Shown: piece by piece, positions 388 through 26,131 of the stretch
How the letters are laid out: the number at the start of each line of letters is the position of its first letter
Position numbering within the stretch: position 1 is the first letter of the stretch
Assembly: GCA_001275005.1 (NCBI GenBank)
Contig: JWZX01001413.1
Location: 1-26,495, forward strand
Origin: Chrysochromulina tobinii
Taxonomy: Eukaryota; Haptophyta; Prymnesiales; Chrysochromulinaceae
Direction of reading: 5' to 3'
DNA length: 26,495 nucleotides
The notes under the pieces: generated by a model
The model's input: the letters and a program-made list of their open reading frames with translations, nothing else
Told to the model about the DNA's origin: nothing
The model's database searches: none
Translations under genes and position numbers: made by a program

Positions 388-3300
388 TCAGATGGTGGAC
401 ACGCAGCGGTACATGGACTCCAGGTACTCCTCTTCGATGGCCGTGGGCGACACAAAGTCCCACGTGTGCACCACGTCCTCGTCCGAATCCGCATTCTGCT
501 TCAAGTCCGCATCGTGCATGGTCTGGGCGGTCCGCAGCGCGAGCAGCTCCTTGTCCTTCTTACGCTTCGGGACGCCCTTCACACCTTTGAGCGGGGAGGG
601 GAGGGTACATGATGGGACGATATCCCAGTCGATGCCCTTAAAGTACGGGTGCCGCTTGATCTCGTCGGGGCCCGCCGAGCCGCAGCCGAGGCGACTGTGC
701 CAGTCCTGAGTAAGCAGCTTTTCGCAAAAGTCCTGGCACTCATAGGACGGAAAGTTGCCCGGCCGGTAGGTCGGCCTGGACTGATCTCGATTTGAGAAGG
801 GGAGCGCGCCGTTGAGGAACTCGTACAGCAACACCCCCACCGTGTACCAGTCGACGGAAGTGCCGTACGCCTCACGGTTCTTGCGAGCCCAGCGCACCTC
901 GGGGGCCATGTAGCAGTCTGTGCCCACGCGCGAGGTGCGCCGCGGCCGGTCGCCTGTCCAGCGCACGGCGAGGCCCATGTCAATCAAGCGCACATGGCCC
1001 GCTTCATCGACGAGCAGATTCTCGGGCTTGAGATCGCGGTACAGGATCTTTTGTGAGTGCATGTAGCAGAACACCTCGACCGTCTCCATGATGACCCAGC
1101 GTGCTTGGTCCGCCGTGAGCCGGCGCGGTGTGAGTACAAACTCGGACAAGTCGCCAGAGGGGACGAGGTCCATCACGAGACACAAGAACTCGGGGTTCTG
1201 GAAGGCGTATCGGAGATTGACCAGGAACGGATGCTGCATCGCGGAGAGAAGGTTTGCCTCCATCGCGATCTTCTTGCGCCATGATTGGCCGAGGGCTTGC
1301 TTCATCGACTCCTTCTTCATCACCTTCATCGCGTAGCGCACGCCGCAGTCGCGCTTGATCACCTCGATCACCTGGCCGAAGCCGCCCTCGCCAAGGACGC
1401 GGATCACCTGAAACTGCTCCAGCTTGGGCACGATCCCCTCCTTCGCCTTCATCGCGACGATGTAGTTATAGTGCTCCGAGCCAAGGAACCTCGCGTACCT
1501 GCGATGGTCATCAGTGGCACTCAGAGGTCATACGTAGCCATAAGTGGCCATCAGTGCCAATCAGCGGCCATCAGCTTACCAATGACTCTCAATGTACGCA
1601 GCCGCCAAGGTCGCCATCTCGCCAAACATGCGACGCGCCTGCGCGTTCATGATCGTGCCCGCCTTGAGCGCCGCAATCTGATGGGCGAGCTCCTCGCGCA
1701 TCCGCTGCGGCAGGTAGGGCAGGTAGAGCGGCGCCGTCGTGTCCCAGACATGTTTATCCGCGATGAGTTTCGCCTCCTTGATCAGAACGTGCGCGTCGGG
1801 TAACTTGCGGAACTCAATCTCGCGCACCACGAGATCGAACGAGCCGAGCGCCACGTTGATCGGATGATCGGCCTCGTCGTGGGTCACATTGCCTCGTGCC
1901 ACGTCCTCTTGCACCGAGAGCAGGTACTTGCGCAGCAGCCCGTTGAACGCCTTGCTTTCGAAGATTTGCTGGACAGGCACGCGGATTGCGGACGTCGTGA
2001 CCGTCGGCGCTTTGGACTCGGCCGCAGCCTGAGTCAGCTGATAGAGGCGCTCCGCCTGGTAGGCGGCGATGAAGCAGAAGAAGCGGCCCGGCAGCCCGGG
2101 CGACGACTGGAAGAGCTCCTCCAGGTACTGTCCCTCGAGGCACACGAGGAGCGTGTCCTCATCCGCGGCGATCGATGCGGTGGCGATCCCGGATTTGAGG
2201 AGGGAGGTTTCGCCGAACATGTCGCCTGCGCGCCGAAGGCCTACCATGACGGCCTGCGCCGTGTCCTTGATCTGCAGCTCGACACGCACGGAGCCCTTGA
2301 TGATCTGGAAGAGCGCCGCCGTCGGCTGCCCCTCCCTCAAGACGTACTCACCCTTTTTATACGAGCGCTGCTTGGCACCGGCGAGGAAGTGGACCCAATC
2401 GTCTTCGGTGAGCGAGAAGTCGATGGCGCGATGATTCTGCGCCCTGGCCTCTTGCAGCACCATGGGCTCAAACATCTCGTCGAACTCGTCAAGCGCCGCG
2501 GAGCCCGACGCCGCCGCGCCGTGGGTCGCATCCTTGGAGATCTCCGCCGCCAGGGCTTGGATCCGCGCCGCCTCGAGCACGAGCATCGCCTCCTCGATCC
2601 CGTGGTCGATGGTCACCTCATACGAGGAGCCTTTGAGTTGCACATGGACCGTGTTGTGCATGGCATCATGCCGCAGCAGCCCGGCAATGTCCTTGCACTC
2701 GATGACGAACTGCTTGTGGAAAGCGAACACTTTGATATCGAAGCACAGGTGTTTCGCGAAAAGGAACATGTCACCTACGTTCGCTTGCGACTCGAGGACT
2801 CCTTTGTTCTCGGCGCGCACCGAGCACTGATAGTACGACATGAGCTTCTCGTCCGCGAGGAGACCGAACTGCACGCGCGTCTTCGAGATCTCCGCCGCAG
2901 GCAGCAGCTGCTGCGACGTTTGCCCCTTGCCCTGCGCCGACGTCGAGTCGCTGGTCACCTGCGCGCGCAGCTTGCCGGAGAGCTCCGAAATGCGCTCAGC
3001 GAGCGCGATGGCCATCGCCTTGAAGAGCCGACCCGACTGGCCGGGGTCAGCCTTGAGTTGCGCGATCAGCTGCGTCTGCAGCACCTCGACGCATACCACC
3101 GGCCCATCAGCCACGGCTGACACTGTGGACTCGTGGCCCAGCAGCAGCGCAAGCTCGCCAAGCACGTCACCCGGTCCACGGGTGGCCAGATGGCTCTCGT
3201 GGCCCGTTTCTGATTTCAGCATGAGCTTGACATAGCCCGTCCTGATGTAGAAGGCTGACTCCGACACCTGACCCTGCCAGATGAAGGTCTCTCCGTCCAC

Positions 3301-3929: not shown

Positions 3930-6900
3930 TCATGCAAGGTGGATGGCGAGCGCCGCAGAGAAGCCTTCGCGCACGAAGGTGCTCGCCGGCTCGTTGAAGT
4001 CCACCACTTCGCCATCCACTTTTACCGAGCCCACAGCGCTCTTGCCGGGCACAGCGCTCTTGTGGGCCTTGACTGCTGCCTCCACAATCTTCTTGAGAGG
4101 GCTGGTGAGCCATTTCGGATTGAGCTTGGTCTCAGATGCACTCAGCAGCTCATCACCCCTCCATAGCTCGATGATGAAGTGCGGCACGTCCGCTGGAGGT
4201 GCGTCCGCACCCTCGAGCATCACCAGCACATCCACTGGCGTCCCATCCTTGTCCACATACACGGACGCCTTGAGGGTCTCGTCAATCTTCTCGCCGTTGA
4301 TGGTGACAGTACTCCAACGCTCCTTCTTTTTGCCGATCGCCTCGAGCGCCGGCTTGATGAGACCCTCGGCCAGTGACTTGCCCAGCCAGAAGGAGTTGAG
4401 CGAAGTCTCCATCTCCGTTAGGCGGGAGCCATCGGCCCCCGCGATGTGGATGACGAAATGGCCGACAGGCCCGCTCGACAATACGTGGGCAAGCCCGTGG
4501 GCCATGGAACCAAGCCCGTGGGAGAGTCCGTGTGCCACAGAGCCCACCCCGTGACTGAGGCCGTGGCCCACAGAGTGCCCAAGCCGGCTCGCGCCCTCCA
4601 TCATCTTCTGGATCATCGGGTCCTTGTGGTTGAGCTTGATGTCGATCTCGACCGGTGAGCCGTCGTCATGCATGAAGTTAGTCGCGGGCTTCGTCGCGTC
4701 CACCTCGCCTAAAGGTCCCCCGACGCTTCCAACGAGCACCGCGACGACCGCGGCGTGGTGTATCTTGTTCGCCTTGAGCGCGGGGTGGATGAGCGCCGCA
4801 AGCAACGACTTGCCCTTGAGCCATTTCAGCGTGGGGCGCGTCTGGCTGGCCACCACAGCCTCGCCGTCCAGCGAGATCTGGACAATGAAGTCGCACGGCG
4901 CGAGACTCGGGTCATTGACCGCAGACGAGAGCGCCTTCGGCTTGAGCTCTCGCTCGGTAGGCTTGAGATGCACGACCACCCGCGCAGGCATCCCCACCGT
5001 CTTCGACGCCCGGTCCGCCACCTTGCCCGCGAAGATGTCGGCCACCTCGTCGCCGTCGACAGTCACCGACGCCCAGCCTACATCGGTAAGCTGCTCCGCT
5101 CGGAGCACGGGCTCAACGAGCGACTTGCCGAGCGACTTCTGCAGCCAGCGCGCGTTGAGCTGTGCCTCCACAGCTGTGATTAGCACCCCGTTCGAGTCGA
5201 CGATGTCGATGATGAATTTGGGCGCGTGGTCGATGATGGCCCTCTCCGGCAGTATGCACTTGACGAAGACTTCGTGGGTGCCTGCTTTGGCGTACATGGA
5301 CGTGATCGCGTGGGTGTCCACGTCGAGCCCATTGATCTGCACCGACATGTTCTTCGTGTTGATCGTGAGGGTGGGGTGCGCCTTGACGAAGGCCTTCACC
5401 GCCGGCTCGATGACGGACACACCTAGCGAGTTCGTCATCCATTTTCCGACCACCTCGCTCGTTAGCTGGTCCATGGCGTTGGTGCTCGTCGACCCGTGGT
5501 GGAAGGAGACGGTGAACTTGCTCGCCTTCTCCGCCGCATAGGCGCCCGCAGGCAGGAGCACCTCGACGTGCGTCACGACGGGGTCGCCCTTATTCCCCAC
5601 TGGCAAGCCGTTGACGTACTTGATGCCATCGACGACGGGCGCGATGAACTGGAGCGTTTCGGCGTGCACCACCCTCCGATGGTCCATCTCTTGCCCATCC
5701 ACCTTGATGCTGAGCTGAGGCGGTTGGCTGGGGAAGACGACGTTCAGATGCTTGAGCGCCGGCTCGATCAAGCCGGAGAGCAGCGGCTTCTTGAGGAGCG
5801 ATTGCGAGAGCACTGTCTGGAACGAGGAGAGCACCTCTCCGTTGCGCATCACGATGTCGATGGTGAACGACTTGGGCTCCGAGGACTTGTCCAGCTTGAT
5901 CTCCACGTTGATGTCGTGCCCCTGCTCCTCAAACTTTTGGACGTACTTGTGGCAGTCGAGCTCCGCCGAGCCGATGTTCTGGCCGTTGATTGAGATCGCT
6001 TTGACCTTGGCCTTGGCCATGTCGGCCGCCTCGAGCGCCGGGTAGACGATCGCTGTGCTGAACGGCCGGTGCATCCAGGCAGTCCCCGCAGGAGCGAGGG
6101 CGGCGAACCAAGAGCTCGACATATCCGGGATGGGCACTGACATTTTGTAGAGCGGCGCATCGCCATCCCTGTGCGTCACTATCGAGATAAGGAATTGCTT
6201 GGGCTTGGCCTTGGGGTCGTCAATGAGGACGATGTCGACCAACGTCGTCTCCTCAGCGCTGCCCACAACCTCGGAAAGCTTCGCCTTCAGGTCGGCGGGC
6301 GCACCGTTGACTCGGTACTGGCCGATGGCCGAGCTCTTGACGTTGAAAGAATCGAGCGCCGGGGTGATCAAGTCCTTTCCGAGCACGCCCTTCAACTGCT
6401 TCTCCCCAAGCTCCGTCGAGAGTGCTTTGAGGATCTCCCCGGCGGCATCCAGGATGCGTACTTCAAAGCGGCTCGGGCCGGACCCTGCACCTGTGCTCTC
6501 CCCCTTGGCCCCCTTTTTAGGCGACTTCTCTCCCTTTTTGGCGACCTTTTTGCCCTTTTCCCTCTTCGCCGGCGTGCCCTCCCCGCTCTCCTCGTCAGCA
6601 GCTCCCTCAGCAGCTCCCTTCTTAGCCTTGGCCCCCTTCTTCTCCTTGCTACCCTTCTTCGCGGGCGTCTTCTTGCCCTTGCCGCCCTTTTCGGAGCGCA
6701 TCGTGTCAGCGCCATTCGCGACCGCCTCTTCGGCCGCATCGGCACCAGTTGCTGCATCCCCTGCTGGTGTGCCCGCCGGCTCCTCATCCAGCGCCGCCTC
6801 AGCAGCCGCCGCTTTGTGAGACGCGACAGACCGCGGCGTGAAGAAGATTTCGCCATCCTCGTCATCAACGGCGATCACCTGAGGGGGCGCCGGCATCGTG

Positions 6901-7883
6901 AGCTTCAACGGCATCCCCAAAGAGCCCGCTTTGAGCCCCTGTTGCGCCGCCATCGTACGCGGCGTGAAGATGGGTGCCGCGTCCTCACGCGCGCCGTCCT
7001 GGGCTCCGTCCGCTGGGAGGGCGAGCCGTAACTGCAAGACACGCGCGCTCATCGGGGCCTGCGCAGCAAGCGAGCGCGGCGTGAAGAGCGGCTCGCCCGT
7101 CCCGCCGGCGGGCTCGGGCTCCTGGCGCGGCGTGAAGAACGGCATATCCTCCGTATCATTCTGCTGCCACTGTTGGAATTTGATGGCCGTCGCTTCTTGA
7201 CGACTCGTGAATAGCGGCTCGGGGGCCTCGCCCGCGGGCGGAGGAGGAGGGAGGGCAGAGCTGGCAGCGGCCAAGGCTCGAGGCGTGAAGATGGGCCCAT
7301 CATCCCCGAACTGGGCCAGAGCTGGGCCACCTGGCGTGGGGATGGTTTTCGAGCCCGGGGGAGCAATCGAGAGCGTAGGTACTTGGACCTTGAAGCCTCC
7401 GTTCCCGTAGGACGGCGTGGTCGGCGAGCCGGGTGACTGGGGCGAGTCGAGCTCGGTCTCTACGGGTGGCGGCGGCGGCGGCATGGCCTCAAACTCGTCA
7501 GCCTGGGGCGGCGGCGGCGGCGCCTCCTCCTCCGCTTCTTCGAATTCCTCTGGTGGCGGTGGTGGAGGTGTCGAGAAGTCCTCAACACTGCCTCGGTGCG
7601 AGCGAGGCGTCATCGAGACCGACACCTTGTCGATCTTCTCAGCTTCAAAATCGAAGCCGCGATGAATCGCGTGGCGCTCCGGCGTGCGCACCTCCGATAG
7701 CGCCGCCTGCACCTTCTTGAGAGTGAAAGCGCGAAGCTGGAGAGGGGCGAGCGCCGCTGCGAGATCCTCCTCTGGGAGAGCTTGTAGCGCCCTGACCGTC
7801 GGTGCGACCGATAGGATGGCGTCTAAGAGACCCGGAATATTGCCTAGCCCAGACTGCTCCAGCGTTGTGCCGATGTCTTCCAT
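3930..7883 (-). CDS. Large multi-domain repeat protein (SAM-like, polyproline, FTPR motifs, about eight beta-grasp-like repeats)
   Basis: A single-exon frame of 1,317 residues; I do not recognise the family. Order: a helical SAM-like segment (1-65, ending LPEEDLAAALAPLQL and a KKVQAAL helix); acidic and polyproline tracts (105-140), possible profilin or SH3 ligands; six [PIF][FIL]FT[PS]R motifs (197-202, 223-228, 248-253, 265-270, 304-309, 346-351); a Lys/Ala-rich H1-like stretch with TPAKK and SPKK (396-462); then about eight repeats of 80-105 residues starting near 472, 563, 672, 789, 889, 998, 1142 and 1235. Repeat pattern: FxIxI, G, WLxKSL, LIxPALKA, VxVxG, VxVxxxL. The beta-hairpin, helix, strand, turn, strand pattern suggests a ubiquitin-like beta-grasp fold (inference). 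An HGLSHG-type run lies at 1102-1133. There is no signal peptide or membrane segment. Start 7883 is the first ATG, in a strong GGCCATGG context. A scaffold role is plausible but unproven. Confidence 0.85.
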   Translation of the reverse strand: MEDIGTTLEQSGLGNIPGLLDAILSVAPTVRALQALPEEDLAAALAPLQLRAFTLKKVQAALSEVRTPERHAIHRGFDFEAEKIDKVSVSMTPRSHRGSVEDFSTPPPPPPEEFEEAEEEAPPPPPQADEFEAMPPPPPPVETELDSPQSPGSPTTPSYGNGGFKVQVPTLSIAPPGSKTIPTPGGPALAQFGDDGPIFTPRALAAASSALPPPPPAGEAPEPLFTSRQEATAIKFQQWQQNDTEDMPFFTPRQEPEPAGGTGEPLFTPRSLAAQAPMSARVLQLRLALPADGAQDGAREDAAPIFTPRTMAAQQGLKAGSLGMPLKLTMPAPPQVIAVDDEDGEIFFTPRSVASHKAAAAEAALDEEPAGTPAGDAATGADAAEEAVANGADTMRSEKGGKGKKTPAKKGSKEKKGAKAKKGAAEGAADEESGEGTPAKREKGKKVAKKGEKSPKKGAKGESTGAGSGPSRFEVRILDAAGEILKALSTELGEKQLKGVLGKDLITPALDSFNVKSSAIGQYRVNGAPADLKAKLSEVVGSAEETTLVDIVLIDDPKAKPKQFLISIVTHRDGDAPLYKMSVPIPDMSSSWFAALAPAGTAWMHRPFSTAIVYPALEAADMAKAKVKAISINGQNIGSAELDCHKYVQKFEEQGHDINVEIKLDKSSEPKSFTIDIVMRNGEVLSSFQTVLSQSLLKKPLLSGLIEPALKHLNVVFPSQPPQLSIKVDGQEMDHRRVVHAETLQFIAPVVDGIKYVNGLPVGNKGDPVVTHVEVLLPAGAYAAEKASKFTVSFHHGSTSTNAMDQLTSEVVGKWMTNSLGVSVIEPAVKAFVKAHPTLTINTKNMSVQINGLDVDTHAITSMYAKAGTHEVFVKCILPERAIIDHAPKFIIDIVDSNGVLITAVEAQLNARWLQKSLGKSLVEPVLRAEQLTDVGWASVTVDGDEVADIFAGKVADRASKTVGMPARVVVHLKPTERELKPKALSSAVNDPSLAPCDFIVQISLDGEAVVASQTRPTLKWLKGKSLLAALIHPALKANKIHHAAVVAVLVGSVGGPLGEVDATKPATNFMHDDGSPVEIDIKLNHKDPMIQKMMEGASRLGHSVGHGLSHGVGSVAHGLSHGLGSMAHGLAHVLSSGPVGHFVIHIAGADGSRLTEMETSLNSFWLGKSLAEGLIKPALEAIGKKKERWSTVTINGEKIDETLKASVYVDKDGTPVDVLVMLEGADAPPADVPHFIIELWRGDELLSASETKLNPKWLTSPLKKIVEAAVKAHKSAVPGKSAVGSVKVDGEVVDFNEPASTFVREGFSAALAIHLA

Positions 7884-8197
7884 GGCCCCCCGCTCGGCAA
7901 TCACAGGCACGCGTCCAGTGTGCAGATCGCTGCGCCTCTATCCCCCGCGCGCCGACGGTAGACCTGTGATTTGGAGATTTTGGAAGTCTTCCAAATCGGA
8001 CAAGTCTCGAAACCACCGACACCGTGCCTCTGCACCGGCGACCGGGGACGAGCACACATTTTGTACAACCTAAATATTTGGCAGACTCAACATAAAACGC
8101 GGCGTACGGCTGCCGTGTCTCCCTCGCGTCTTCAACTTCATACCTCAGTGATTCCTCAGCCAATCTCGGGTGAGTCGCTCGGTGCTCAGTGCGGCGC
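7884..8197. other. Intergenic with a 17-bp palindrome upstream of the repeat-protein gene
   Basis: A 314-bp gap between the ABCC stop and the start of the repeat protein. It holds a perfect palindrome, TTTGGAAG-T-CTTCCAAA (7979-7995), about 100 bp upstream of ATG 7883, and an AT-rich near-palindrome CCTAAATATTTGG near 8069-8081 that resembles a CArG/MEF2-type site. Both could be factor-binding sites; function is inferred from symmetry and position only. Confidence 0.4.
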
Positions 8198-11100
8198 TCA
8201 ATCCAAGTGCCTCGCGGCGCCCACCATCTCTCGAAAGACGCTCGTCGGGTTGGCCATGAGCGCCTTGGGCGTACCAAACTCGATCAGCCGGCCGGACCCA
8301 AGCACGAGCACCTTATCCGAGTCGAGGATCGTGTTGAGCCGGTGCGCAATCGTGAGCACGGTCGCCGTAGCGAATTCGGCGCGCACCGTGCGCTGGAGAA
8401 GGGACACCGACGGTCAGTGGAGCAGTGGAGCGCCAAGGCAGTCAGTGGCCATCGGAAGCCATCGGAGGCCATCGGAGGCAATCAGTGGCCATCAGTATGT
8501 GCACACACCTGGATGAGGGCATCGGTCTCGGAGTCGACCGAGGAGGTGGCCTCGTCCATGATCACGATCGCGGGTCGAGTCAGCAGCGCTCGCGCGATGC
8601 ACAATAGCTGGCGCTGCCCCGCTGACAAATTCGCGCCCTCCTCCAGCACATGGTCTTCCAGCGTGTGAATGGCATGCGTGAGCTGCACGCGCTGGAGCAC
8701 GCGCCACAGCTCATCCTCCGTGTAACGTCCCAGAGGGTCGAGGTTGAACCGAACGGAGCCTTCAAAGAGCGTAGCCTCCTGGGGGATGACACACACGCTC
8801 GAGCGGTATGAAAGTAAAGGCAGCGAGCTCAGCTCAGATCCATCGAGCCAGATAGAGCCAGATCGAAGTGGGGGCGCCACCAGCCGAGTAAGAGCCACGA
8901 GGAGGCTGCTCTTGCCTGAGCCGGTCCGCCCGACCACACCCACCTTCTCGCCCGCCTTGATGCGCACGCTCAGTCCCTCAAGTGCGAGGGGCAGCCCCGG
9001 GCGGTAGCGCAGCCCCACGTTCTCGAGCACGAGCGCGCCGCGGCTCGGCTGGCCACCGGACCCCTTCTCGGCGGCTGCCAAGCCCGGCTCGGCCCACCAA
9101 GACCGGCTCGGCCACCAGCCGGCCAACGGAGACGGCGGCGGGGGAGCCCCGCTGAACACCCAAGTCGCGGGTGCGCCGCTGGCCAAGGGAGCTGCTGCGG
9201 TGGACGAACTGTCTGGAGGGTGTGAACGGTCTGGAGGGTGTGAACGGTCTGAAGGCTCCACGGAGGACGTCTGGCGTGACGCCGGCGCCGGTCGGGCCTC
9301 GCGTCCGATTGGCCGAACATGGAGTCCTCTCAAGTTCGGGACGTCTTCGGCTGCGTAGCCGGGCTCGGGGGGTACGTCGCTGTAGGTGCGCATCCGTTCA
9401 ACTGCAACGAGATGTGCCTCGAGCTCCGCCGCCTGTCGCACTGACCAGTTGAGTGCTTGGGTGACCTGCATGGCTAATGACACGGAGAGAGCCGCGCGCC
9501 CTACGCTGCGCGCGCGCGCGCCCACCCCGGCCGCCGCGCCCGCCGCCGCTGCCACCGCCGCCGCTGCGCCCACTGTGGCCTCCGTTGCCGCGCATATGGC
9601 CGAGTCCACGGCCCACTTGTCAAATATGGAAGGGCCCTCCATGGTCGCCGCACAGACTGCGGACTCGACGGCTTGTGTGGCAGCAGCAGCCGCCCCTTGC
9701 AGCAGCGAGGGACCCCGGCCGAAGGCAAGAAGGGCAGCGATGGCCGCAAGCGTGGCGCCGAGAAGCTCCAAACGTAGCCCCAACCAGCAATTGGCGATCG
9801 CCGACGCGAGGCCAGCGCGCACGTTGCGATCGATCTTGTGCTCGGCCTGGCGACCAAAGCGTGGCTGCGCATTGTACGCGCGGATGGTGTCCAGCCCGTC
9901 GAGCGTCTCCGACACGTGCGTGAGCATCGGCGCGCGCGTGCTCGATTCGAGTCGCTTCATCTCGCGCGAGCTCGCCATGTAGAAGGAGGAGAAGGACACG
10001 TAGGCCCAGCCGAGCAGCGGCAGCGTGAGCGCGAACGTGGGCGAGTTGGCACACACGACCGCAAGGGCGGAGACGACGGCGAAGGTCGTCGAGCCTAGCG
10101 TCTGAACGGCCGAGGGCAGCGCCACGTCGACGGTCTGGAGATCGCGCGAGAAGCGTGCGAGCAGCCGGCCGATCGGCGTCACATCGAAGAAGGCCACCGG
10201 TGCGCGGAGGAGGCTGATCAGCAGCTGGTCGTGCATCCCCGAGCCGGCCGAGAGGCCCACCGAGAGCACGATCATGTGGCGGACCACCGTCAGAAGCGCC
10301 GCCGCGAGCGCCCAGCCCGCGTACCCGGCCAAATAGAAGCGGTTGCGCTCTGCGGGCGCATTGGCCCACTGAGTGAGCCACCACGAAGAGCCGAGTTGTA
10401 GGACCTCGACGAGGATCATAGGAACCAGCATGAGTGGCACCACGCGCGCGCCGCCACCCGCCGCCTGCAGCCAGGCGCCGAGGACGGCGGCGGACACGCG
10501 CCCCTGCTCTATGAGCTCCTCCTCCCCCGTAGCCGGCGCCTTCACACCCCCCCCCAGCTCTTCCGAGTCGTTGGACGCCCCTGATACCGAGGTGTTGAGC
10601 GCGGCGGCGGCGGCAGGGGCGGCGGGCGCGTCGCTCTCGCCCTTCTCCCACGGAGCTGCAGCCCCAGCCGTGCTTCGAGCCGCCTCGTCAGCGTGTGCCG
10701 GGGAGGTGGGCGCCGTCATGGGCATCGACGCCGTCCTGGGCGTAGTCCGAGGCGCCGTCATGGGCATCGGCGCCGTCCTGGGCGCGGGCACAGCCTCGTC
10801 CGAGCCGCCCATGACGGCGCCCATTGGCGGCCCGGGCCTCGCTGCCACGTTCGCGCCCGCGCCCAGGACGGCGCTCGTACCGCTCGGAGCCTCGTCGGCG
10901 TTGGGTGAAGCGACCTCGACGGATCCCTCCTCCGCGCCGTCGCGGGCGTCCGCGCCGTCGCGGGCGTAGCTCTGCGTCTGGAAAGCGAGCAGCCGCGCGA
11001 AGGCGCCTTGCCGGCTCGTCAGCTGCTCATAGGATCCTTGCTCGATGACCTCGCCCCCCTCGAGCACAAGGATGCGTTGCACCGAGCGTAGCCGATCGAG

Positions 11101-11678: not shown

Positions 11679-13811
11679 GCTCGGGACGGCGCTCGGATCG
11701 GTGCTCGACATTGGTGGCGGACGCGGCAGACGGCGTCGGCGACGACGGCGTACTCGCAGCCGCAGCCGCCGTTTCTGCCGACGCGCCAGGTGGTAAGCTC
11801 TGATGACGCTTGATGGCCTCTGATGACGCACCGCCCGACGCGACAGATGGCACGCTCGTTTCCGCCAGCAGTGCATCCCGATCCCCCACCTTCCCGCCGG
11901 CCTCCCGCCTCGCTCTCGCCATCTCCTCCTCCTCCCACGCCGCCGCCGCCGCCGCATCCCAAGCCGCCGCCGCCGCCGCCGCCGCCGCATCCCACGAGAG
12001 CTCGACACCCTCGAGGCGCAGGCCGACGTCGGCGAGTGGGCCTGGCGTAAGGCTACGGGCCTCGGCAGCGTGCAGGAAGGCCTGGGGACGGGCGAGCGAG
12101 GCAATCAGTCGCAATCAGTGGCAATCAGTGGCACCGAGAGGCGATCAGTGAAGACGGGCGATCGAGTGGCACTAAGGGGCATTCAGTCGCAATCAGTGGC
12201 ACTCAATGGCACTCGGTAGCGCTCAGTGGCCATCTGAGGTCATCATCAGAGGTCATTGACGAGACTCACGTGCTCGAGGGCAATGGGGGCTCCATCAGTG
12301 GCAATCAGTGGCCATCAGAGGTCATTGACGAGACTCACCTGGAGACGTGCGAGCGAGGTACGCGCCTCCTGAGCCGACTGCAGCACGAGAGGCAAAAAAA
12401 GCAGCGGCGAGCGTAGCAGGTTGACCGCCGAGAGTACCGTCATCGCCGTCTGGAGTCGCAGAGTGCGTCCCAGGAGCGCGTACGTGCCCAAGATGGCCAC
12501 TGCGACGAGCGCAGGCGTGGAGGCGAAGACGGCGGCAAGGAGAGAACGCAGTCTGATGAGTGCGGTGAAGGCCGCTACCTCTTGCCCGCGCGCTTGTCCC
12601 ACGCGCTCGCCAAAGGCAAGTTCCCACGCATGCAGCTTGATGACTTTGATGGCCCCAAGCGCCTCACGCGCGCGCCTCACGCGCAGATCTCGGGCGACCA
12701 GCAGCACCTGCAGAGGCAATCAGAGGTCATCAGAGGTCATCAGAGGTCATCAGAGGCCATCAGAGGTCATCAGAGGTCATCAGAGGTCATCAGAGGTCAT
12801 CAGAGGTCATCAGAGGTCCCGGGCGACTAGAAGCACCTGCTGGCACCGGTAGGTGGCCGTGGCTATTGCTCGATTGGCGAGCAGCATGCCAAGCACCACT
12901 GCGAGACCAGGCAGCAGCGGCAGGAGGCCCACCTCGCTATAGAGTAGCCCGAGCGCTGCGAGGACCTGCAGTCGCGCACACGATAGTCAGTCGCACTCAA
13001 TCGCACTCAATCGCAGTCAGTCGCACATAATCGCAATCAGTCGCACTCAGTCGCACTCAGAGATAATCAGCCCAAGCGCCGCGAGGACCTGCAGTGGCGC
13101 GAACCAGAGCGCGTGAAGGTAGGGCACCAGATCGCAGATACGCTGCGAGTCCGGCCCGATGAGGTTGGTGACATCTCCGGAGGAGACACGTGCCGTGGGC
13201 GCCACCCGGAGCAGCTTGCGGTACGTGGCGCCCACCACGGCCGCGCGCAGCCTCAGACCGGTGCGGAAGAGCTGCGCGAAGTAGTGGCGCAAAGAGAACG
13301 CTTGCAAGCACGAGACGGCGAACAGCGCGAGGGTGGCGCGCACGCCCTGCGCGGCGTTCGCGCCGCCCTCGAGCAGAGCGATCATGTGGCGCAGCAGCAA
13401 GGGCGTGGCCAGCTGGCACACGTCGGAGAGCAGCTTGACGACGCCCGCCGCAGCAAACTCACGGCCAAAGCTGCGCCATAGGCTTAGGGCCACTGCGTTC
13501 GGCTGCGATGCCGTGCCGACGGCTCGCATCGCCTCGAAGTGGTGATCAAAGTTGTCCGTGGCTGTCTGCGACGAGTCCATCTTGCTAAGTGGCGGCAAAT
13601 CATGCTCTTCAAGCGGCCGCTGGTTGCCGAGTCGCAAGGTCGGGTTGAGCCACGCAAAGGTTGCCCGCGAGAGCACGCCGGCTGCGGCCTCGGGCTCCAA
13701 TTCGCGCGATGACGGTGGACGGTCGTAGCTGGTGGTAGGTAGTTTGGGTAAGCCGACCGCCTCATTTGACCCAAGCAGCGTCGTGACCAGAACCGCCAGC
13801 GATGCCTTCAT
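8198..13811 (-). CDS. ABCC/MRP-type full ABC transporter, five exons
   Basis: Exons 13089-13811, 12837-12965, 12339-12707, 8509-12081 and 8198-8392 give 1,662 residues; all four introns are phase 0 after CAG. It is a short MRP without TMD0: an N-terminal [16 protein letters not shown] motif, TMD1, NBD1, Ala/Pro-rich linker, TMD2, NBD2. NBD1 has Walker [10 protein letters not shown], signature LSGGQR, Walker [11 protein letters not shown] (Asp instead of catalytic Glu) and ATN at the H-loop. NBD2 has [26 protein letters not shown] and AHRLNTI. The degenerate first site is normal for ABCC exporters, which move conjugated organic anions and related compounds. Oddities are a low-complexity Ala-rich insertion of about 125 residues between the first strand and Walker A of NBD1, and an Ala-rich insertion of about 75 residues in TMD2. 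The first 20 residues are mildly signal-like. Exon joins match MRP1 spacing as I recall it around VLAALGL and VLLVARDL. Confidence 0.9.
8393..8508 (-). other. ABCC intron 4, decamer-bearing
   Basis: A 116-nt intron with donor CAG|GTGTGT and acceptor CTTCTCCAG|CGC. It joins SETDALIQ to RTVRAEF inside NBD2, the spacing expected for ABCC proteins. It contains units such as CTGATGGCCA, CTGATTGCCT and CCGATGGCCT. Unlike the other three introns of this gene it shows no clear flanking duplication beyond TCCAG. Confidence 0.85.
11793..11829 (+). repeat. Opposite-orientation decamer copy inside an ABCC exon
   Basis: The plus strand reads GGTAAGCT followed by CTGATGACGC, TTGATGGCCT and CTGATGACGC. This matches the intron family, including a donor-like GGTAAGCT also seen at the start of the GRK-gene intron, but in the antisense direction relative to the ABCC gene. 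It is translated in frame as part of the low-complexity insertion in NBD1 (peptide around [12 protein letters not shown]). Confidence 0.7.
12082..12338 (-). other. ABCC intron 3, decamer-bearing, duplicated splice-site segment
   Basis: A 257-nt intron with donor CTCCAG|GTGAGT and acceptor CGTCCCCAG|GCC. Splicing gives [12 protein letters not shown], the normal ABCC spacing after TMD1. The last about 23 nt of the intron copy the end of exon 3 (20 of 23 identical, including CAGG). A 26-bp block containing the donor occurs twice identically (12244-12269 and 12313-12338). The remainder is diverged decamers. Confidence 0.85.
12708..12836 (-). other. ABCC intron 2, near-pure decamer array with duplicated exon start
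   Basis: A 129-nt intron with donor CAG|GTGCTTCTAG and acceptor CTCTGCAG|GTGCTGCTGG. Its first about 25 nt copy the start of exon 3, so both copies encode VLLVARDL. The centre (about 12711-12818) is a near-perfect tandem array of CAGAGGTCAT (plus strand), about ten units. Splicing leaves one copy, as MRP spacing requires ([13 protein letters not shown]). Confidence 0.88.
12711..12818. repeat. 10-bp tandem repeat array (minisatellite)
   Basis: CAGAGGTCAT on the plus strand (CTGATGACCT group in sense) repeats about ten times with almost no variation; one unit reads CAGAGGCCAT. It is the most homogeneous member of the decamer family and lies wholly within ABCC intron 2. Confidence 0.95.
12966..13088 (-). 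other. ABCC intron 1, decamer-bearing with duplicated junction
   Basis: A 123-nt intron. Both junctions read ACTGCAG|GTCCTCGC. About 33 bp around the junction is duplicated, 29 of 33 identical, covering roughly 12 bp before and 21 bp after the splice site. The centre is decamers in sense such as CTGAGTGCGA and CTGATTGCGA. Splicing gives [18 protein letters not shown], the normal MRP length. Confidence 0.87.
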
Positions 13812-23172: not shown

Positions 23173-26131
23173 TCACATTACGGACAGGTTTGCTGCTGGT
23201 GCATGTCCAATCGGCCCATAAGGGTTCGCCACGGCAGGCCCTTGCCCGTTACGCGCCGCATGCTGATGATGCATGGACTGCTGCATGGACTGCTGCTGCT
23301 GTGGGGAGGAGTGCTGCAGCGCCATCCACTCGCTCGAGATAGCGGCCACCCACAGCGCCAGCGCCTGCGCCGACGGCGCACGCAAGCGGTACGAGCGGTG
23401 CTTGCACACGACCTCGAACTCATATTTGAGCTTCGAATACATGCGCACACACGTGACGGTCGCGAGGGGGATGCGCTTCTCGTCCTTATCAATGACGGGG
23501 GGAATCTCGTCCGTGTCGAGCGAAGGCCGCTTGGTGCGGTAGCACAGGGCATCGTCGACGAGGTAGAAGAAGCGGCAACGGTAAATGAACGGCATCCAGG
23601 AACGGCTTCGCTTCCACAGGAAGCCTACAAGGGGCATCTGCTGCTGCTGCTGCTGCAAGTGCTGCTGCTGTAAGTGCTGCTGCTGGTAGGGCGGCGCCTG
23701 CGCCGGCGGCTGCGCGAGTGCCGCGAGGACCTCGCACCGGTATGGCGTCAGCTGTGAAGTCAGCTGTCCTTGGGGGTGCTGTGAGTAGGCGTATTGCGCT
23801 GGCACTAGAGGAGGCGGCAGCGGCAGCGGCGGAGCCAGCCCGTTGATCATCCTTAATGGCGGCGCCATCGGCGACCTGTCGGCGGCCGATGGCGCCCACG
23901 ATGGCGCCCACGCCTCCGCAGCCCGTGGGCCCCTGGTAGGCGAGGGGCCGCCATCGAGATCGGAGGGAGGTCGACTCTCCGCGCGCTCTTCCTCCGTCAC
24001 CATCCATCTGTAGGCCTGGTGCATTTGATGCGGCCCGTCGCTGTCGGTGCTGGGGGCACTCGCGCGACAGGGATGGGCTTCCTTATTAGGAACGCCTGGC
24101 AGCCGCTGCAATCGTGCCTCCTCGCGGCTCAGCGAGTGCCCAAGCTGCTCGCGCGTGCCGTTCTCTTCCTTTGGCCCAGAGGCAGGGTCGAGTCGCCCAC
24201 CTTGCCGTGCACCGACCGGTATTTCGGGCAGCTGCTCCGCGGAGGTACTGGAGACCAGAGCGCCGTCGCGGGCGGACGCTCGGGCCCGTCCCTGTGAGCT
24301 CGCGGGCGAGCTCGTGGTGCGGGCGAGCTCGGACTGCTCCTCTGCCGCGTCCGTCCCGGAGAGCCGGGCGCTGCCCCGGGCGCTCCGGTAGCTTCCCCCT
24401 GCACGGGCGCTGCCCCGGGCGCTGCCGCCGGCCGCGCGGGTAGGGTAGAGGTCTTGGTCGGGGGGGGCAGTGCGACGGGTCCGTCTGAGCACGCCTCAGG
24501 ACGGGCCGCCCGATCTGGGGCTCGATCTGAGGCGAGCTCGTTGAGCTCGTTGGGGTGTGCTGTGAAGAACTGTGCTGTGAAGAACTGGCCGCCAAAGCCC
24601 CCGTTCTCTCACCCGAGTTGTGGCGCGAGCGATGGCCCATGGCGTCCTTGTCCGAGTGCTGCCGCGAGCCGCCGCTGCCGTATTGGCTGCTGCCGCCCTG
24701 CTCCTGTCGAGAGCCGCCCCGCGAGGATTCGCCCACGACGGCGCCCCGCGAGGATTCGCCCACGACGGCGCCCCGCGAGGATTCGCCCACGACGGCGCCC
24801 CGCGAGGATTCGCCCACGACGGCGCCCCGCGAGGATCCGCCCACGACGGCGCCCCGCGAGGATTCGCCCACGACGGCGCCCCGCGAGGATTCGCTACACC
24901 GGCGGTGCTCCGGCGCCGTGCCGGGCGCCGATGCGTGTGCGTAGTAGCCCTGCGGATCGGAATCGTAACCGTCGCTTGGGGACAGCAGCCCGCGGTGGCT
25001 GCTGCCCGAACGGATCGTCGTCACCGTCTGCACCTCGAGTTGACCGATGCGCTTCGGCGGCGCGCGAACGGAGTCCAAGGCCAGCAGCGCGGAGGCGCGC
25101 GCGGCGGCGGCGTCGCGGGCACCCTCGAGCCACGCGTGCCGACGAAGCTGCGAGGCCGTCGGGCGTGCGGCCGGGTCGCGCGTGAAGCACATGGTCACAA
25201 AGGAGAGCAGCGCGGGAGAGAGGTCCGACGGCAGCGGCGGGTGCTCGTCCTGCACGATGCGGTAGAGTGCCGTAATGGGCTTGAGCTCAAAATAGGGAGG
25301 CTCGCCTGTGAGCAGCTCCAGGATGGTACATCCGAGGGACCAGATATCCGAGGCGGTGGTGAAGGCCGACATCTGGATGATCTCGGGCGCCATCCAGTAC
25401 GGCGTGCCCACCACCGAATTCTTCGCCGTCGGGCGCGAGTCTTCCTTTTTGGCGACCCCAAAATCCGCAAGCTTGACCTGCCCGTCCTTGGTGATCAACA
25501 GGTTGGCACCCTTGATATCGCGATGGCACACGCCCTGCTCGTGCAGCCACTCGAGCCCGATGAGCACCTGGTGCACGTACACGCACACCAGGTGCTCGGG
25601 GAGGGCGCCAAAGTGCTTGACGAGCGTCGCGAGCGAGCCATTCTCCACGTACTCGAGCACCAGGTACAGGTGCTCCTCGGTGCGGATCGTCTCGAAGTAG
25701 CGCACAATCTGCGGGTGCTGTAAATTGTGCAGCAGGTCGATCTCCGATTGCACCGCCTCAAGGTGCCCGATGGGCATGTTGCACGCCGGGATCTGCTTGA
25801 TCGCCCGGAAGTCGCCCGTCTCCCGGTTGAGAGCACGGTAAACCTTGCCAGAGGAGCCACGTCCCAGCTCCTCCCCAAGCTGGTACTTGGAGTCGAGCAC
25901 GCACTGCTGTGGCGGCTTCGGACGCGCGCGAAGGTTCTTGAAGCTGGTCTGGCAGTGCTGGCCGTCCGAGCCATCCTGTGCGCGGGAGGAGGAGCCTGTT
26001 CTCGACAGAGGGTCTCCCGACGCGGAGCGAGAGCCGTTCAAGGGCTCGGCCCCGGTGGGCGCAACTCCTCCGGAGTCGGTCCGACCAGAGTCAAATCTGG
26101 ACGGATGGTGCGCCCTGGGTGCAAAGCTCAT
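23173..26131 (-). CDS. Cdc7/SepH/MAP3K-epsilon-like STE kinase with C-terminal PH domain, frame broken at a C8 run
   Basis: The kinase domain (residues about 83-335) has GRGSSGKV, AIKQ, CHRDIKGANLL, ADFGVAKK, VGTPYWMAPEI and SDIWSLGCTILELLTGEPPY. The ALYRIVQDEHPPLP region is typical of the MAP3K-epsilon / SepH / Cdc7 branch, which acts in septation and cell-division signalling. Then comes a nonamer repeat ESSRGAVVG (414-481, about seven copies), Ser-rich linker, Gln-rich tract and a PH domain (nt about 23323-23634; GFLWKR, RFFYLVDD, WVAAIS) that may bring the kinase to membranes. The frame shifts at eight Cs (24460-24467): the kinase frame runs on only into Arg/Pro-rich nonsense to 24086, while the PH frame is open from about 24492. 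A seven-C run would join them, so a homopolymer sequencing error is the simplest explanation. ATG 26131 is the first ATG. The two halves could be separate genes, but no ATG fits the second. Confidence 0.82.
24686..24892 (-). repeat. 27-bp in-frame tandem repeat in the kinase-PH linker
   Basis: Seven complete 27-bp units plus a partial one encode ESSRGAVVG; one unit begins with Gly instead of Glu. The period is a multiple of three, so copy number can change without a frame shift. The encoded linker is likely disordered with many potential Ser phosphosites. Confidence 0.92.

Follow-up and report, generated by a model that had tools for sequence, protein, structure and literature searches.

How new spliceosomal introns come into being is a long-standing question, and few natural cases still show the scar of the event. 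Candidates for such a scar are found in the haptophyte Chrysochromulina tobinii, in a stretch of 26,495 nucleotides (contig JWZX01001413.1, assembly GCA_001275005.1; hereafter the window) that carries on its minus strand a gene for an ABCC (MRP-type) transporter, starting at ATG 13811. A first-pass annotation had described three introns near the start of this gene, with exon sequence from around the junctions repeated at both intron ends, and had read them as candidates for introns born by tandem duplication of an AG/GT exon segment (the slash marks the splice junction). The locus thereby raises the question of whether the duplications record the birth of introns and, if so, by which process. 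Our answer is that these are probably recently gained spliceosomal introns, which arose by insertion of short signal-rich pieces of DNA, with long target duplications of variable length supplying the splice sites, in a manner that resembles introners. The features on which the argument is built, all on the minus strand, are the following.

13089-13811, minus strand: ABCC exon 1, from ATG 13811
12966-13088, minus strand: ABCC intron 1, 123 nt, GT-AG (GTCCTC...CTGCAG), phase 0
13069-13100, minus strand: upstream copy of the intron 1 target duplication, 32 bp, 29 identical
12946-12977, minus strand: downstream copy of the intron 1 target duplication
12987-13060, minus strand: 10-bp minisatellite in mid intron 1, about 7 copies, 81% match
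12837-12965, minus strand: ABCC exon 2
12708-12836, minus strand: ABCC intron 2, 129 nt, GT-AG (GTGCTT...CTGCAG), phase 0
12820-12840, minus strand: upstream copy of the intron 2 target duplication, 19 of 21 identical
12691-12711, minus strand: downstream copy of the intron 2 target duplication
12711-12818, minus strand: 10-bp minisatellite in mid intron 2, 10.8 copies, 95% match
12339-12707, minus strand: ABCC exon 3
12082-12338, minus strand: ABCC intron 3, 257 nt, GT-AG (GTGAGT...CCCCAG), phase 0
12338-12358, minus strand: upstream exon end that is copied in intron 3, 19 of 21 identical
12081-12101, minus strand: copy of that exon end, just before the acceptor of intron 3
12244-12269, minus strand: perfect 26-bp direct repeat within intron 3, with its other copy at 12313-12338

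The coordinates and splice sites first given for the three introns were borne out, and the duplications at their junctions are real. In particular, when the donor and acceptor junctions of intron 1 are compared in register, 29 of 32 positions match, from -12 to +20, in agreement with the earlier figure of about 33 bp with 29 identical. The match in intron 2 extends over 19 of 21 positions, from -4 to +17, and the 27 bp claimed for it at first are reached only by admitting more mismatches. As already noticed, intron 3 is duplicated on the upstream side only (19 of 21 positions, -20 to +1; 20 of 23 in the first-pass annotation). The in-register flank scores of introns 1, 2 and 3 are 23, 15 and 15, against scores of 9 or less for 20 mismatched donor and acceptor combinations drawn from the five minisatellite introns located in the window. 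Moreover, among 394 minus-strand AG/GT donors with a YAG 60-300 nt downstream, exactly introns 1-3 reach a score of at least 12. Chance similarity as the source of the duplications was ruled out by these mismatched controls, by those of the sampled loci described below and by the scan of 394 pairs; a null of random draws was not used, 127 of 200,000 draws having scored at least 23, probably where donor and acceptor were one and the same site.

AGGT is present in both copies at the splice sites of introns 1 and 2, not in intron 3, and in those two introns splicing would restore one copy of the duplicated stretch, as the first-pass annotation had it. Removal of introns 1-3 recovers the reading frame, and the spliced protein aligns gap-free at all three junctions with the solved MRP1 chain (8vt4); for example, the window residues across a junction pair with WSAPLQVILALYLLW. 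From frame and homology, the three introns are predicted to be spliced in the cell, and introns 1 and 2 look recently gained. Near its donor, intron 3 also contains the internal 26-bp repeat listed above, whose two copies are spaced by 69 bases (12244-12338), which looks like the trace of a later event that struck the intron while it was young and left a nested duplication.

What lies between the copies bears directly on the process. The centre of intron 2 is an array of 10.8 copies of the 10-bp unit CTGATGACCT with 95% match, that of intron 1 is made of about 7 copies of a related unit (81%), and the array of intron 3 is more worn (63% match). A 30-mer of the intron 2 array has 412 + 374 = 786 exact, overlapping matches in the 53-Mb genome that holds the window, counted as sequence places and not as called introns; a minisatellite 28-mer had no exact match in the viral collection, and a viral source was rejected. 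The unit reads CTGAT and then pyrimidines, and CTGAT fits the branch-point consensus, yUnAy, so that it might act as a branch point. Since the centre is a minisatellite that recurs at many places of the genome, or at other loci a second, 37-bp module, an insertion flanked by a duplication of its target site accounts better for what is seen. In other words, the first-pass annotation appears to have been right in taking the duplications as a record of intron birth, and we reject its proposal of a tandem duplication of an AG/GT exon segment for the window on the ground that exon copies do not make up the intron centres. Considered in general, tandem genomic duplication is an accepted mechanism (PMC3443670), with a case in potato (PMC4974935; for these and all other articles cited by PMC number, our statements concern the portions consulted), and it would leave AG/GT in both copies of introns 1 and 2, with splicing restoring one; nevertheless, we hold it to be an unlikely origin, given the minisatellite centres of the window introns and the evidence from other loci described below.

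The course of events that we propose would begin with a staggered break that took up a short DNA segment carrying many intron signals: in the window a minisatellite of about 10 bp, CTGATGACCT, and elsewhere the 37-bp module ending in CCCCACAG. Fill-in of the stagger would have copied a stretch of exon to both sides of the insert, over some 12 to 46 bp, the lower bound being that of the score cut-off. The GT of the upstream copy would then be used as donor and an AG at the end of the insert, or in the downstream copy, as acceptor, whereas less often the insert would itself bring the donor; in either case the mRNA would be unchanged. A staggered break or pair of nicks, followed by insertion and fill-in, would account at once for the duplications, their variable length, the varied places of the junction and the unchanged mRNA.

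The same genome was sampled at 20 plus 3 ten-kilobase stretches, at 27 short stretches and a set of 3-kb loci around minisatellite places, and at 15 smaller loci around the second insert. Most sampled loci were picked for the repeat (contigs C33, C45, C167 and C206 and the short stretches), while 19 ten-kilobase loci (L011 and L013-L030, 190 kb) were unselected. Flanks matching at a score of at least 12 are found in 50 of 95 minisatellite tracts, against 8 of 285 controls in which flanks of different loci were paired; at a score of at least 20 the figures are 25 of 95 and 0 of 285. After setting aside 13 of the 50 duplications, whose copied stretch held minisatellite words, 37 are left, with lengths from 12 bp, the floor of the cut-off, to 44 bp and a median of 21. 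In 20 of these 37, a GT in the upstream copy and an AG in the downstream copy stand in register in the sense of the repeat, and in 1 in the antisense (23 and 4 of 50, respectively, when the word-containing duplications are restored). These sense, antisense and reversed controls replaced a first count over all dinucleotide pairs (GT/AG 13, CT/AC 17, mean 7.1), which was uncorrected for composition. Over the selected loci and the window together, GT-AG register is seen in 49 of 82 direct-repeat pairs, against 8 of 82 in the reversed control.

The place of the junction within the 20 GT-AG duplications varies, with 10 lying at most 5 bases from the start of the duplication, 4 at most 2 bases from its end, and 6 inside. 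Where the junction is near the start, the insert tends to bring the acceptor (for example, CCCTCATCAG followed directly by GT at L012), and where it is near the end, the insert tends to bring the donor. A duplication at L012 is still perfect (34 of 34) and already encloses a foreign centre, which speaks against an origin by tandem duplication, and a tandem duplication lacking an insert, at L018 9319, has no GT-AG register, no search having been aimed at such cases. In the window itself, three of the five minisatellite introns located have an in-register duplication; the other two served as internal controls.

8393-8508, minus strand: ABCC intron 4, a minisatellite intron without duplication (score 5)
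1499-1579, minus strand: intron of a kinase gene, a minisatellite intron without duplication (score 4)

Two further arrangements were met in the sampled loci. In one of them, at L012 7685-7897, a perfect 22-bp duplication flanks a minisatellite that runs into the donor side of an intron carrying the 37-bp module, which gives the impression that an insertion straddles the scar left by a different one. At L009 4628-4769, a minisatellite is flanked by a perfect 21-bp duplication with no GT-AG in register; possibly this is an insertion outside coding sequence, in which case it would be useful for separating the rule of insertion from selection on splicing.

The second insert, GCATGCAAGTGCTCACCACGGCGCCCTCTCCCCACAG, is likewise flanked by several duplications. 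When up to 1 mismatch is allowed, the core is found at 748 places, as opposed to 0 for the reversed pattern, and the whole 37-bp module at 96 places with at most 3 mismatches; these too are places and not called introns. A flanking duplication with a score of at least 12 accompanies 20 of 34 core matches (with 2 mismatches allowed, so that some of the 34 are probably chance), against 4 of 170 controls, and the duplications reach 46 bp, perfect, at L063. A looser pattern gave 65 matches, of which 20 were dropped for having no AG in range; among the remaining 45, several of which are chance at 3 mismatches, 24 have an in-register duplication at a score of at least 10, beginning with GT in 17, GC in 4 and other letters in 3. 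At L063, for example, 44 of the 44 bases that follow the junction match; L060 scores 30 over 33, and L073 scores 25 over 34. In 18 of the 24 the match extends merely 0-4 bases to the left of the junction, so that the start of the duplication usually coincides with the module end; the other 6 (9-44 bases to the left) are, as we read them, in tandemly repeated units or overlapping matches. These figures again disfavour tandem duplication, as two insert types recur at hundreds of places, many duplications are one-sided, as in those 18 cases, and the perfect L063 duplication also holds a foreign centre already. As a separate observation, L069, L070 and L071 carry a unit of target copy plus module repeated two or three times head-to-tail, identically at L071, and further module pairs spaced by 70-84 bases are found among the 96 whole-module places; the arrays at L069-L071 would reflect either repeated insertion at one site or slippage after a first insertion.

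The recurrence of the inserts also bears on an origin through break repair, in which end joining that takes in filler DNA would close a staggered double-strand break. This has been put forward for the neointrons of Daphnia and would need no mobile element. Direct repeats of variable length are the scar expected of such repair; the minisatellite units, in the cases printed, are alike within one locus and differ between loci, as if expanded locally; and the nested repeat of intron 3 resembles the staggered-then-staggered class of PMC4202315. On the other hand, the exon-derived repeats of Daphnia measure 4-12 bp in that article, against mostly longer ones here, and a 37-bp module found at 96 places is not expected of random filler. 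Break repair with filler is therefore a possible explanation, in our estimate clearly less probable than the insertion of recurrent pieces. The recurrence of the inserts favours an introner-like mover rather than random filler. The long and variable duplications speak against introner transposons with short duplications, as these are known.

That the duplication so often starts at the AG of the insert suggests another way in which the piece could have arrived. The 3′ ends of spliced-out introns, comprising branch point, pyrimidines and terminal AG, could have been reverse transcribed into nicked DNA beside a GT. Such a retro-insertion would explain both the recurrence of the acceptor half and the starting point of the duplication, the match stopping 0-4 bases left of the junction in the 18 of 24 module cases; a variable stagger fits target-primed reverse transcription; and the genome holds 26 matches to the reverse-transcriptase domain RVT_1, 22 of them over the cut-off, with no link to the inserts. 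Against this, a GT at that place could arise from selection for splicing alone, the left end of the module looks fixed in the copies printed, with no random truncation, and the junction lies at the other end in 4 of 20 minisatellite cases. We regard retro-insertion as rather improbable. The same low standing is given to a more specific, joint proposal: that the mobile part would be a short acceptor module only (branch point, pyrimidines and AG), a copy of the 3′ ends of introns already present that would be primed at a nick ahead of an exon GT; that the long duplication of the target would provide the donor together with the 5′ portion of the new intron; and that the branch-point-like arrays would be a second, slipping form of the module, missed by low-complexity filters. 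Because break repair and retro-insertion would be sub-mechanisms of insertion, the probabilities attached to these readings overlap and are not shares of one whole.

The age of the introns can be approached through relatives. The nearest named proteins are those of Emiliania huxleyi and Pleurochrysis for the ABCC transporter, and of Chattonella for a calcium pump. The homologous proteins compared seem to have been predicted as unspliced reading frames, since several continue into intron-like tails and then stop (P0121, ending ...SAVNLITTDCHH, and P0124). An intron-less relative of the kind envisaged by the first-pass annotation was found, at the protein level, in P0127 and P0128, which are 94.5% and 95.5% identical, respectively, to the protein predicted from the window after splicing; P0127 groups 65 member sequences and P0128 groups 13, with a longest contig of 24,177 bases. 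Both cross junction 1 uninterrupted, and both end on the same residues, those obtained from the window by reading on into intron 2 until the stop, so that they represent, at that level, a sibling without intron 1 and with intron 2. Moreover, P0121 is without introns 1 and 2 (82% over residues 150-430 and 69% over exons 1-2), and P0122 and P0123 are without all three. In total, nine rows lack intron 1: P0121, P0122, P0123, P0124, P0127, P0128, P0130, P0132 and P0140.

A tree of 19 rows, from which P0126, P0129 and P0141 were left out as not reaching the junction or not used, needs 3 state changes at junction 1, 2 of them forced by well supported branches. Eight rows similar to E. huxleyi fall in one supported clade, and the window stands beside P0127 and P0128, from which it is separated by short branches of 0.012 and 0.026. 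Either three gains or a single gain followed by two losses could account for these changes; from the sequences compared, recurrent gain at one CAG/GT site is favoured for junction 1, although not proven. P0130 diverges one codon before junction 2, which is possibly another recurrent site. In addition, the frames of P0121, P0124 and P0129 enter intron-like tails where the window has no intron, which suggests a frequent turnover of introns in this gene.

The relatives also supply what can be said for an old intron of conserved position, lost in several lineages, whose flanks would be alike through gene conversion or selection on splice signals. The contrary observation named by the first-pass annotation, introns at the same positions in distant species without the duplications, is partly borne out: P0131, P0133-P0139 and, on our reading of its gene model, E. 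huxleyi P0125 end or diverge at junction 1, where an intron and a contig end look the same. The three changes of the tree, too, may stand for one gain and two losses. Yet selection on splice signals would not yield 29 identities over 32 bases, nine rows are without the intron, and the branches between the window and P0127 and P0128 are short; an old intron is, of all the origins weighed here, the one to which we give least credit.

Several observations weigh against our preferred explanation, namely the recent insertion of recurrent pieces with target duplication. Besides the breaks at junction 1 in distant relatives, which leave open an old intron lost several times, P0127 could derive from a partly spliced transcript, though the P0128 cluster has a 24-kb contig. 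Among the 95 minisatellite tracts, 45 are without duplication at the cut-off, and 17 of the 37 filtered duplications lack GT-AG register, 6 of them being GC-AG. In the 19 unselected loci, direct-repeat pairs with GT-AG register number 6 of 36, against 5 of 36 in the reversed control. The same loci contain 18 labelled tracts, 13 of them in L015, and 8 of the 18 have a duplication; 4 of these 8 pass the filter for minisatellite words, and none of the 4 has GT-AG in register, a result for which we lowered our confidence slightly. Around the second insert, the unselected loci show a duplication at 2 of 4 matches (L019 and L024, not L015 and L030). This means either that the process is concentrated in certain genes or that the unselected sample lacks the size to reveal it. 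One further perfect 24-bp duplication with GT-AG in register is found in the unselected L017, and taken together the unselected loci lend the insertion weak support. A wider reading, in which the majority of introns in the genome would be affected, was dropped, since these loci show no excess of GT-AG register.

How the ABCC introns relate to known systems can now be stated. Like introners (Gozashti et al. 2022, PMC9860276), they are similar introns in exons of an aquatic protist, in which one or both splice sites come from the target-site duplication and the coding sequence is kept; the inserts have many similar sequence places in one genome (748 for the module core and 786 for the minisatellite 30-mer); and a close relative has an intron-less orthologous site, that of P0127 and P0128 at junction 1, at the protein level. 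They differ in that the repeats of previously characterised introner families are given there as 3-9 bp, whereas the duplications here are variable and measure 12-44 bp at the minisatellite and up to 46 bp at the module. They also differ in that the similarity among the window introns is of low complexity, that of 10-bp minisatellites; the 37-bp module, absent from the window, would pass in this respect. As putative low-complexity families were removed from that survey by manual examination, to judge from the portion consulted, minisatellite introns like these would probably have been set aside. The introner elements of Amoebophrya (PMC7789003) are comparable as repeated introns with direct repeats at the exon borders, but these repeats are of 3-5 nt, and the elements have inverted repeats and non-canonical splice sites.

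With the Daphnia neointrons (PMC4202315) the introns share nested internal repeats and the repetition of terminal exon bases at the far intron end, a direct repeat that is present in introns 1-3 of the window and in 50 of the 95 sampled tracts; the repeats of Daphnia, of 4-12 bp, are shorter and our longer ones come with recurrent inserts. Similarly, the staggered-break model, as we read it, has an unrelated insert in each case, in contrast to the two recurrent insert types described here. Introns born by tandem duplication (PMC3443670; potato, PMC4974935) likewise have AG/GT in both copies and restore the coding sequence precisely, but there the new intron derives from the duplicated segment, while here a foreign repeat stands between the copies. 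Finally, direct repeats near introns in general, of 4-30 bp with a mean of 11.4, were found by manual shifting at a similarity of at least 70% (Rogers and Bendich 2025, PMC11782384) and, in the portion consulted, are linked neither to a family of inserts nor to siblings that lack the intron, unlike those reported here. No report of minisatellite introns with long target duplications was met among the titles and abstract openings searched, which cover few subscription journals.

Elsewhere in the window, positions 24715-24894 hold 6.7 copies of a 27-bp unit with 98% match, a unit length that preserves any reading frame, and positions 3933-7937 of the minus strand hold an open frame of 1335 amino acids with no Pfam match at an E-value of 0.001. 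No RNA family matched the window at the gathering score.

Copied targets of up to 46 bp, some of them still perfect, together with an intron-less sibling, would allow the age of an intron, the rule of its insertion and the selection on its splicing to be measured directly. In addition, these introns point to an intron class that was probably set aside as low complexity in a large published survey of introners. Chrysochromulina tobinii may, in this way, be an organism that shows how new introns arise.

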